DNA from: an uncultured bacterium
Lineage (GTDB): Bacteria; Patescibacteriota; Minisyncoccia; Phycocordibacterales; CAINVO01
Reading direction: 5' to 3'
Assembly (NCBI GenBank): GCA_903854195.1
Contig: CAINVO010000028.1
Span: 1 to 48,767, forward strand
DNA length: 48,767 bases
How positions within the stretch are numbered: position 1 is the stretch's first letter; every line of letters starts with the position of its first letter. Positions 37,573-39,659 of the stretch are shown here, piece by piece. Below the pieces are notes generated by a model. That model was not told where the DNA came from, ran no database searches, and worked only from the letters and a program-made list of their open reading frames with translations. The translations under genes and the position numbers were made by a program.

Positions 37573-39342
37573 TTAACGCCTATTTATAGCCCCAATTATA
37601 GCTTTGATAGACGCCATATCTATACTTGGATCAATACCAGCACCCCAATATTTAATATGGGATTTTTTGCTTTTGTTTTTATCTATTGCGTCGGCAAACT
37701 GGATACAAACATACGCAATAGCTTTTGCTTCCGAACCCTCAGTCAATGAATGCTCATGAAAATCAAAAATATTTACACAAACACCCACACTCCGAAGGCC
37801 TTTAACAAAAGCATCTACTGGACCATTCCCCCATCCAACTATTTTTAATTCTTTTTTTTCAAAAACAATTGTTGAGGAACATTCATACATGTTTTCACAA
37901 TTTTCTAAACTACCAGAAGATGATTCTTCTGTTTTTTCAATGTGAAAATTCAAAAGTGAACATGGCCCACTTCTGTTTATATATTCACGTTGAAACATTT
38001 CATATATTTCTTCTGATGAGACTTCTCTACCAATTGAATCAATAATATTACCCGCAATCGATCCAAATTCCTTTTGCATTTCTTTCGGCATTTTTATATA
38101 GCTATTGTTTTCAAGCGTATACGCAATACCACCTTTACCCGATTGTCCATTTATCCTTATAACTTCATCGTATTTTCTACCAATATCTTTTGGGTCAATC
38201 GCCAAATACGGAACATCCCATGTGCGATTTGCGGCAGAGTTTTCAATGCGAATATTCCAATCAGACAAACCTTTTCGAATTGCATCTTGATGTGAGCCAG
38301 AGAAGGCTGTGAATACCAATTCACCACTGTACGGATGACGGGGTGGTACAGTCATACCTGTACATTTTTCATATACCATCCTTATATCATCAATATTAGA
38401 AAAATCTAACATTGGATCAATACCCTGTGAATACATGTTCAAAGCTAATATTACTATGTCGAGATTTCCTGTACGCTCGCCGTTTCCAAAAAGCGTACCC
38501 TCAACTCTTTCAGCACCTGCAAGTAAACCAAGCTCAGTTGCAGCAACTCCAGTACCACGATCATTATGTGTATGGACACTCACAATAACCGATTCACGAT
38601 TTTTCAAGTGTTTACAAAAATACTCAACTTGGTCCGCATAGATGTTGGGCATTGCAACTTCAACAGTTTCGGGTAAATTAATTATCATCTTTTTACCAAC
38701 TGTTGGTTTCCATTCTTTAACAACCGCCCCACAAATTTCAATTGCAAAATCAACTTCTGTAGCTGAAAAACTTTCAGGAGAATACTGGAATATAACTTCT
38801 GTTTTTAATGCGACAGGAGATTTACCTATACTCTCTTTAATTTCAGACCCATCAATTTTTTTCACATATTTCTTAACCCATTTTGTACCCTGCACAGCCA
38901 TTTCAATAATTTCTGTTTTTTCTAAACCAAAAACTACGCGGCGTTGTGCAGGAGAAGTTGAATTGTAAAGATGAACAATCACACGTTTAGCTCCAATCAA
39001 AGACTCAACAGTTTTTTTGATTAATTCCTCGCGTGCTTGAGTTAAAACCTGAATAGTGACATCATCTGGAATTTTATTTTCCAAAATCAATCTTCTTACA
39101 AACTCAAACTCGGTGTTTGAGGAAGCTGGAAAACCAACTTCTATTTCCTTAAAACCACATTTTACCAACAATTCAAACATCTCGATTTTTTGCGAAATAT
39201 TCATTGGATCTTTTAAGGCTTGATTTCCATCACGCAAATCAACGCTACACCAGATAGGTGCTTTACTCAAAACCTGATCTGGCCATCTTCTATCTTTTAT
39301 TCCTATGACAGGAAAAGGCTTGTATTTACTTGTTATTTTCAT
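37573..39342 (-). CDS. leuA: 2-isopropylmalate synthase (long LeuA2 type)
   Basis: First committed step of leucine synthesis: acetyl-CoA + 2-oxoisovalerate to 2-isopropylmalate. 589 residues as in the long actinobacterial/fungal type: catalytic-domain motifs IWCSVDLRDGNQALKDPM, FKEIEVGFPASSNTEFEFVR, metal site VSVHTHNDRGTGVAATELGLLAGAERVEGTLFGNGERTGN, and a C-terminal regulatory (LeuA dimer) domain from about 450 that senses leucine. No leuBCD or ilv gene is in the window, which is striking for a presumed host-dependent organism. An attenuator-like leader precedes it. Confidence 0.95.
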   Translation of the reverse strand: MKITSKYKPFPVIGIKDRRWPDQVLSKAPIWCSVDLRDGNQALKDPMNISQKIEMFELLVKCGFKEIEVGFPASSNTEFEFVRRLILENKIPDDVTIQVLTQAREELIKKTVESLIGAKRVIVHLYNSTSPAQRRVVFGLEKTEIIEMAVQGTKWVKKYVKKIDGSEIKESIGKSPVALKTEVIFQYSPESFSATEVDFAIEICGAVVKEWKPTVGKKMIINLPETVEVAMPNIYADQVEYFCKHLKNRESVIVSVHTHNDRGTGVAATELGLLAGAERVEGTLFGNGERTGNLDIVILALNMYSQGIDPMLDFSNIDDIRMVYEKCTGMTVPPRHPYSGELVFTAFSGSHQDAIRKGLSDWNIRIENSAANRTWDVPYLAIDPKDIGRKYDEVIRINGQSGKGGIAYTLENNSYIKMPKEMQKEFGSIAGNIIDSIGREVSSEEIYEMFQREYINRSGPCSLLNFHIEKTEESSSGSLENCENMYECSSTIVFEKKELKIVGWGNGPVDAFVKGLRSVGVCVNIFDFHEHSLTEGSEAKAIAYVCIQFADAIDKNKSKKSHIKYWGAGIDPSIDMASIKAIIGAINRR

Positions 39343-39356
39343 ATTTTTACTTTCTG

Positions 39357-39449
39357 TTACTTTTGATTACTTACGACTCTTGTTCGGATTATATTTAGCT
39401 TAGCTTTAAACAACAAAAACAAAGAACTAATGATGAATACTAAATTCAT
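39357..39449 (-). CDS. Small Leu/Ile/Val-rich ORF directly before leuA
   Basis: ATG 39449 opens 30 codons with 5 Leu, 4 Ile and 3 Val (40% branched-chain), starting MNLVFIISSLFLLFKAK and ending 14 bases before the leuA ATG. AAGGAA lies just before its start. It could be a second leader peptide coupled to leuA translation, or a small hydrophobic peptide. A chance ORF is not excluded. Confidence 0.4.
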   Translation of the reverse strand: MNLVFIISSLFLLFKAKLNIIRTRVVSNQK

Positions 39450-39493
39450 CTTTCCTTACCAATTATTTTATTTTGTCTTGTGCGCACAAAACA

Positions 39494-39522
39494 AAACCAG
39501 CCCCTTGGTGAAGAGCTGGTTT
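39494..39522 (-). terminator. Attenuator terminator in the leuA leader
   Basis: On the minus strand AAACCAGCTC pairs with GGGCTGGTTT (10 bp with one U-G), followed by TGTTTTGTG. It lies 24 bases after the leader peptide stop and well before leuA. Confidence 0.65.
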
Positions 39523-39545
39523 GTGGCTATCTATTTTTAATTAGT

Positions 39546-39623
39546 TTAGCTAGACACAGACAAAATCTCCACCAGTTTTCTGAGGTTTGTAAGGGCTAGC
39601 AGATTTTGTTTATGTCTTAACAT
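39546..39623 (-). CDS. Leucine-rich leader peptide (leuL-like)
   Basis: 25 codons beginning MLRHKQNLLALTNLRK and ending LVEILSVSS. Seven residues are leucine (positions 2, 8, 9, 11, 14, 17, 21), encoded by TTA, CTG, CTA, CTT, CTC, CTG and TTG, so all six leucine codons occur in this AT-rich genome. The ATG stands 7 bases after a TATCAT box, matching the leaderless starts seen elsewhere here. It lies between a consensus promoter and a terminator upstream of leuA, as leader peptides of amino-acid operons do. Confidence 0.65.
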   Translation of the reverse strand: MLRHKQNLLALTNLRKLVEILSVSS

Positions 39624-39630
39624 GATGTGA

Positions 39631-39659
39631 ATGATAGGTGATGAAAATAAAATTGTCAA
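39631..39659 (-). promoter_or_regulatory. Consensus promoter of the leuA leader
   Basis: On the minus strand TTGACA (39659-39654), a 17-base spacer, TATCAT (39636-39631). It is the best -35/-10 pair seen near a conserved gene in the window. Confidence 0.75.

Follow-up and report, generated by a model that had tools for sequence, protein, structure and literature searches.

The leader preceding leuA on the minus strand of the window (the whole analysed stretch of 48,767 nucleotides) very probably acts as a ribosome-mediated, leucine-responsive transcription attenuator of this gene. A small bacterium with a reduced genome thus appears to turn on its first gene of leucine synthesis only in leucine shortage, by the timing of a ribosome that translates a tiny Leu-rich peptide encoded at the very start of the mRNA. 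The anatomy of the sequence, its conservation, its covariation and the match between sensor codons and gene function are directly observed. In enterobacteria, the amino-acid attenuators of the leu, ilv, thr and phe systems combine a leader peptide in which the regulated amino acid is abundant with competing 1:2, 2:3 and 3:4 helices and an intrinsic terminator in front of the biosynthetic gene. The window leader resembles them in its Leu-rich peptide, its three competing helices and its terminator before leuA, whereas its open reading frame (ORF) is predicted to be leaderless and the same RNA core serves several amino acids. Its parts are located as follows:

39631 to 39659, minus strand: leader promoter of sigma-70 type, TTGACA-17-TATCAT (from the window sequence; equivalent in 8 of 8 leuA leaders)
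39546 to 39623, minus strand: ORF of the leader peptide MLRHKQNLLALTNLRKLVEILSVSS with its TAA stop, predicted leaderless (ATG 7 nt past the -10 element; Leu-rich ORF likewise placed in seven relatives)
39600 to 39622, minus strand: segment 1, protector strand near the ORF start and partner of segment 2 (duplex of -20.3 kcal/mol; family-wide test of own against swapped pairs)
39546 to 39575, minus strand: segment 2, the 5' strand of the antiterminator, with the core GGTGGAG at 39573-39567 (conserved core, covarying helix)
39505 to 39534, minus strand: segment 3, the 3' strand of the antiterminator, holding the 5' arm and loop of the terminator with CTTCACC at 39513-39507 (conserved core, covarying helix)
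39489 to 39522, minus strand: intrinsic terminator 3:4 with U-rich tail (terminator search; folds in 8 of 8 leuA leaders)
37573 to 39342, minus strand: leuA, the controlled gene, a long-form 2-isopropylmalate synthase of 589 amino acids (Pfam; NCBIfam TIGR00970)

At this locus, TTGACA (39659-39654) is separated by a 17 nt spacer from TATCAT (39636-39631), which is followed after 7 bases by an ATG at 39623. This codon opens a frame of 25 codons containing seven leucines (TTA, CTG, CTA, CTT, CTC, CTG, TTG), which employ six of the six kinds of leucine codon. The product of leuA contains the Pfam domains HMGL-like, IPMS_D2 and LeuA_dimer and scores 724 bits against TIGR00970 at a cut-off of 697.4. 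The order of elements described in the original prediction, from the promoter over the Leu-rich frame to terminator and leuA, is confirmed in the window sequence. Its hairpin is found with the U-rich tail (TGTTTTG): the stem-loop (39522-39494) is separated from the stop by 23 nt and comprises 12 pairs including G-U. A single intrinsic terminator is observed at the locus, compared to 0.3 expected from shuffles. The expectation that leucine codons would be overrepresented holds in the window, but judged by composition alone the excess is mild (P about 0.003). The leucine count by itself was consequently rejected as proof for being too weak, and the case for an attenuator rests on the comparison with relatives.

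Between terminator and leuA, the window contains a second small ORF MNLVFIISSLFLLFKAKLNIIRTRVVSNQK (39357-39449, minus strand) with many branched-chain residues, which is preceded by the Shine-Dalgarno-like sequence AAGGAAAG; in relatives, the 12-97 nt between terminator and leuA leave scant space for such an ORF. The stretches between terminator and start codon in loci of the family described below also carry boxA-like motifs (GTTCTTT or TCTTTGA) in 18 of 45 cases, compared to about 8% of random stretches, with the motif of the window located at about 39427-39421. These motifs are possibly sites for Nus-type antitermination.

A leuA like that of the window is rare in the order, where it was found in 11 of 397 genomes, and in a search of 384 genomes across the class the window's own gene was the sole match at E<=1e-60. 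Eight of the 11 leuA genomes, including that of the window, carry the leader directly upstream of the gene, and G707 is a ninth case, with a Leu leader before a gene of 440 amino acids that adjoins leuA. In G657, no leader was evident directly upstream of leuA. All eight leuA leaders share a promoter of the form TTGAC(A/T)-16/17-TAnnnT followed after 6-9 nt by an ATG, which predicts a 5' untranslated stretch of about 0-3 nt. As leaderless mRNAs begin no more than about 3 nt from their start codon, this spacing makes a leaderless transcript the straightforward reading. The eight leaders also retain GGTGGAG close to the 3' end of the ORF, and their terminators contain CAGCTCT(T/C)CAC(C/T). GGTGGAG is read as GGT GGA G in seven of the leaders, whose peptides end in GGGLARV, whereas the window uses a different frame (CTG GTG GAG) and its peptide ends in KLVEILSVSS. 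Since the core is kept though the frame differs, the alignment identifies the RNA and not the peptide as the conserved entity. The sensor of the window is less compact than those of its relatives and places one leucine codon inside segment 2, two features that weigh against the attenuator reading.

The leader region of the window folds better than its shuffles (z -3.5) and can form three mutually exclusive helices, a protector 1:2, an antiterminator 2:3 and a terminator 3:4, which together are the complete helix set of a classical attenuator. The nucleus of the antiterminator pairs GGTGGAG (39573-39567) with CTTCACC (39513-39507), which covers the end of the 5' arm and the loop of the terminator, and it extends into a helix of GATTTTGTCTGTGTCTAGC with GATAGCCACAAACCAGCTC of about -20 kcal/mol. 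A pairing between leader and terminator arm had been correctly anticipated in the original prediction, but the proposed CTGGTG contact had to be replaced by this longer GGTGGAG helix in a different register. The 2:3 pairing of GGUGGAG and the bases following it with segment 3 is found in all eight leuA leaders, with hairpins of -20 to -33 kcal/mol, and the terminator folds in all eight. When the eight sequences are aligned by sequence only, 85% of the cells of the antiterminator pair, compared to 31-46% in slid versions. Counted on the same sequences from which the structure was derived, 11 of its 26 pairs change on both sides, a number matched by none of 500 shuffles. For the protector helix, 57 non-redundant leaders of the wider family show a mean energy of -11.8 kcal/mol for their own segment pairs, -10.0 kcal/mol for swapped and -8.3 kcal/mol for shuffled pairs (0 of 2000 permutations), and no comparable effect was found in the same test for control segments in the promoter and in the middle of the ORF. 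Seven other genomes of the order thus preserve the ORF with its leucine cluster as well as the competing hairpins, and the antiterminator shows covariation, in support of the leucine attenuator that had been proposed upstream of leuA.

From this anatomy and the classical mechanism, we infer the start site, the stalling of the ribosome and the regulatory response. RNA polymerase would start at or beside the ATG of the leader and a ribosome would load on that 5' end. With ample charged tRNA-Leu, the ribosome would pass segment 2 to reach the stop codon and mask the antiterminator strand, so that the terminator 3:4 could form and transcription would end near 39490. If leucine is scarce, the ribosome is expected to stall at the early leucine codons 8, 9 and 11, which are located about 17-29 nt before GGUGGAG, and thereby to cover segment 1. 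GGUGGAG and the bases following it would then be free to pair with segment 3, the terminator would not form and leuA would be transcribed. In case of no translation, the 1:2 helix would form and termination would ensue by default.

Beyond leuA, the switch appears in a wider family. A covariance model built from the eight leuA leaders and run on the 397 genomes of the order matches 48 of them, often several times per genome. The promoter, the start codon and the majority of the sensor codons are independent of this model, which starts six bases before GGTGGAG. A combined score of at least 8 for promoter and start codon is reached by 77% of the 57 non-redundant leaders and by 0.75% of 6000 control windows treated alike. 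The Shine-Dalgarno content of the leader ATGs gives no information, as the -10 hexamer TAGGAT itself resembles a Shine-Dalgarno sequence. In frame, the sensor zone contains 21% Leu, 14.5% Ile and no stops, latter partly by construction because an ORF reaching the core was required, compared to 3-4% Ile and 6-8% stops in the other frames. Leu-rich leaders are located upstream of leuA, both in its long form (eight cases) and in its short form (G739, G048). Leaders rich in Ile are found in front of ilvA (G468, G033), ridA-ilvA (the window genome), ridA (G614) and cimA (G008, G467, G707), and a Phe leader MTRQTAALFFFLTTKPLSVEV with a weak promoter match is located before the prephenate dehydratase gene pheA of G655. 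The sensor amino acid fits the pathway without exception among the enzymes identified, with many other matches preceding unassigned genes and a few preceding unrelated families (a PfkB kinase, an ABC transporter and a peptidase). In other classes of the phylum, Leu leaders are found before short-form leuA in G1044 and G970, and a weak match of 25.8 bits in G970 corresponds to a Phe leader MLKRVITNHIFFFSQSVVSG before a prephenate dehydratase.

The correspondence between sensor and pathway bears on the foremost alternative, by which the leader would sense translation in general, such as ribosome supply, growth rate or antibiotics, instead of leucine. Segment 2 would become accessible whenever a ribosome stalls early in the ORF, and the core is identical whichever the sensor. 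A general sensor would not account for sensor codons matched to the pathway in which the enzyme encoded downstream acts (Leu for leuA; Ile for ilvA, cimA and ridA; Phe for pheA), nor for the paralogues of G082 and G473, whose Leu and Ile leaders have 94% of the switch in common, compared to 61-69% of the sensor zone, and we thus regard it as improbable. The two pairs look like products of a duplication followed by recoding of the sensor, and such sensor-swapped copies are natural experiments on the evolution of attenuator specificity. The leaders also reveal which amino acids these cells monitor. Attenuation requires tight coupling of transcription and translation, and the conserved family is therefore indirect evidence for such coupling in these hardly culturable cells and also for their routine translation of leaderless mRNAs.

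Several observations accompany the family matches. Stand-alone LeuA_dimer domains, which are allosteric and here are found without the catalytic part, are encoded behind Leu or Ile leaders (L101 2441-2785, minus strand; L070 859-1416; L072 1663-2259). An Ile leader also precedes a citramalate synthase fused to a class-V aminotransferase or cysteine-desulfurase-like domain (L071 81-2930, minus strand). In L086, L090, L091 and L121, the core is read in the frame of the window (as in ...VEVSLVSR) before genes without clear amino-acid role. Weak matches in other families of the phylum (L127, L128) show aromatic-rich leaders beginning with MKIIRNFFTYWFTSHKL and MSSQIRKGFYFFFFTSP close behind good promoters.

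The genome of the window harbors a second copy of the switch (G000:C43:20023-20112, plus strand; locus L079 1024-1113), where an Ile-rich leader MQANSFKQTSRSNRANIIAMIIIQPSVGGLICV precedes ridA and ilvA. LeuC of the aconitase family and IlvD were looked for in this genome and neither was found. LeuC is absent in 18 of 19 genomes tested, and the family is present in 14 of 14 control genomes. In the exception, G614, LeuC and leuA share a contig, with LeuC encoded closely upstream and an apparent end of leuD, read by eye, directly before leuA. In the absence of LeuC, leuA of the window looks like an orphan first step. It is puzzling that genomes which apparently regulate leuA by leucine should be without the enzymes to finish the pathway, and their absence counts against the attenuator reading as it blurs the physiological gain. 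Taken together, we consider it likely on balance that an order of reduced-genome bacteria, probably belonging to the CPR/Patescibacteria, and in part its phylum have placed their few remaining amino-acid genes under one modular leaderless attenuator, whose sensor codons (Leu, Ile, Phe and perhaps Val and Thr) were exchanged when it was copied to another gene, with much of its use on orphan first-step enzymes (LeuA, CimA, IlvA) in genomes without the rest of the pathway.

Comparison with described systems helps to define what is new. The Leu_leader family of Rfam (RF00512) does not match the locus up to E=10, an Rfam search of the locus returned chance matches only, and neither a T-box nor a riboswitch was found there. 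In the LEU element of actinobacteria, a run of leucine codons in a leader before leuA, as in the window, pairs with a Shine-Dalgarno box in a pseudoknot that uses no terminator (PMC1262725), whereas the window leader contains terminator and antiterminator; the minimum-energy fold of the full window leader does not contain a pairing between leucine codons and the leuA Shine-Dalgarno sequence. As proposed for this element, the leader could be a protein- or ligand-binding RNA with an incidental ORF, and leader mutations in Streptomyces coelicolor, as cited in PMC1262725, are inconsistent with classical attenuation. Such a role is still less probable here, since the leader has all classical parts, among them a terminator and the covarying helices 1:2 and 2:3, since sensor codons are strongly overrepresented in frame, where no stops occur, and since no Rfam family matches. 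In Sinorhizobium meliloti, the trpL transcript likewise begins at the ATG of its leader peptide, but it senses tryptophan, differs in sequence and has known functions in trans (PMC7298713). By analogy with its peptide peTrpL, the leader transcript or peptide of the window might act in trans with attenuation being secondary, for which the precedent in S. meliloti (PMC7298713) and a leaderless mRNA of about 130 nt that would build up under plenty could be invoked; with peptide ends that vary with the frame and sensors that change with the downstream gene, we find this very hard to credit. A chance coincidence, in which the hairpin terminates an upstream transcript and the Leu-rich ORF is spurious, might be suggested by the modest leucine excess of the window alone, but it is refuted by the conservation, the covariation and the agreement of sensor and pathway seen across dozens of genomes and has a negligible probability.

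Leader peptides of this kind are documented in Streptomyces lividans, where RNA-seq shows the leaderless, Leu-rich leaders leuL1 and leuL2 before leuA and leuS (PMC8079986). Of these, leuL2 has a hairpin resembling an intrinsic terminator and leuL1 is without typical terminator; their peptides are shorter (12-15 amino acids) and no GGUGGAG core is described (PMC8079986). Together with trpL of S. meliloti (PMC7298713), this precedent led us to reject leaderless initiation as a novelty, and the suggestion that a leaderless leader peptide would constitute a new mechanical variant does not hold. The accompanying view that attenuation has hardly been considered in bacteria of the Candidate Phyla Radiation (CPR) is borne out by a literature search, mostly of journals accessible without subscription, which found no paper joining these bacteria with attenuators and no description of a ribosome-mediated attenuator in them. 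The novelty lies in the likely CPR setting, in the modular family with one switch and many sensors, and in its use on orphan first enzymes. The CPR assignment is based on the size of the genome, on the very large phylum of small genomes encountered in the searches and on the original prediction. Among more distant leuA genes, clostridial relatives (L018-L022) carry, as judged by eye, a T-box-like sequence, and those of Treponema and Spirochaetaceae (L015, L016, L017) are preceded by independent short Leu leaders (MVYLTLLLDNRLFFCQR, MIYITLLLGNRLFFCQR, MKQIQLLLQSISSSDCRK), which start shortly after promoter-like hexamers, have terminator-like hairpins downstream and are probably also leaderless.
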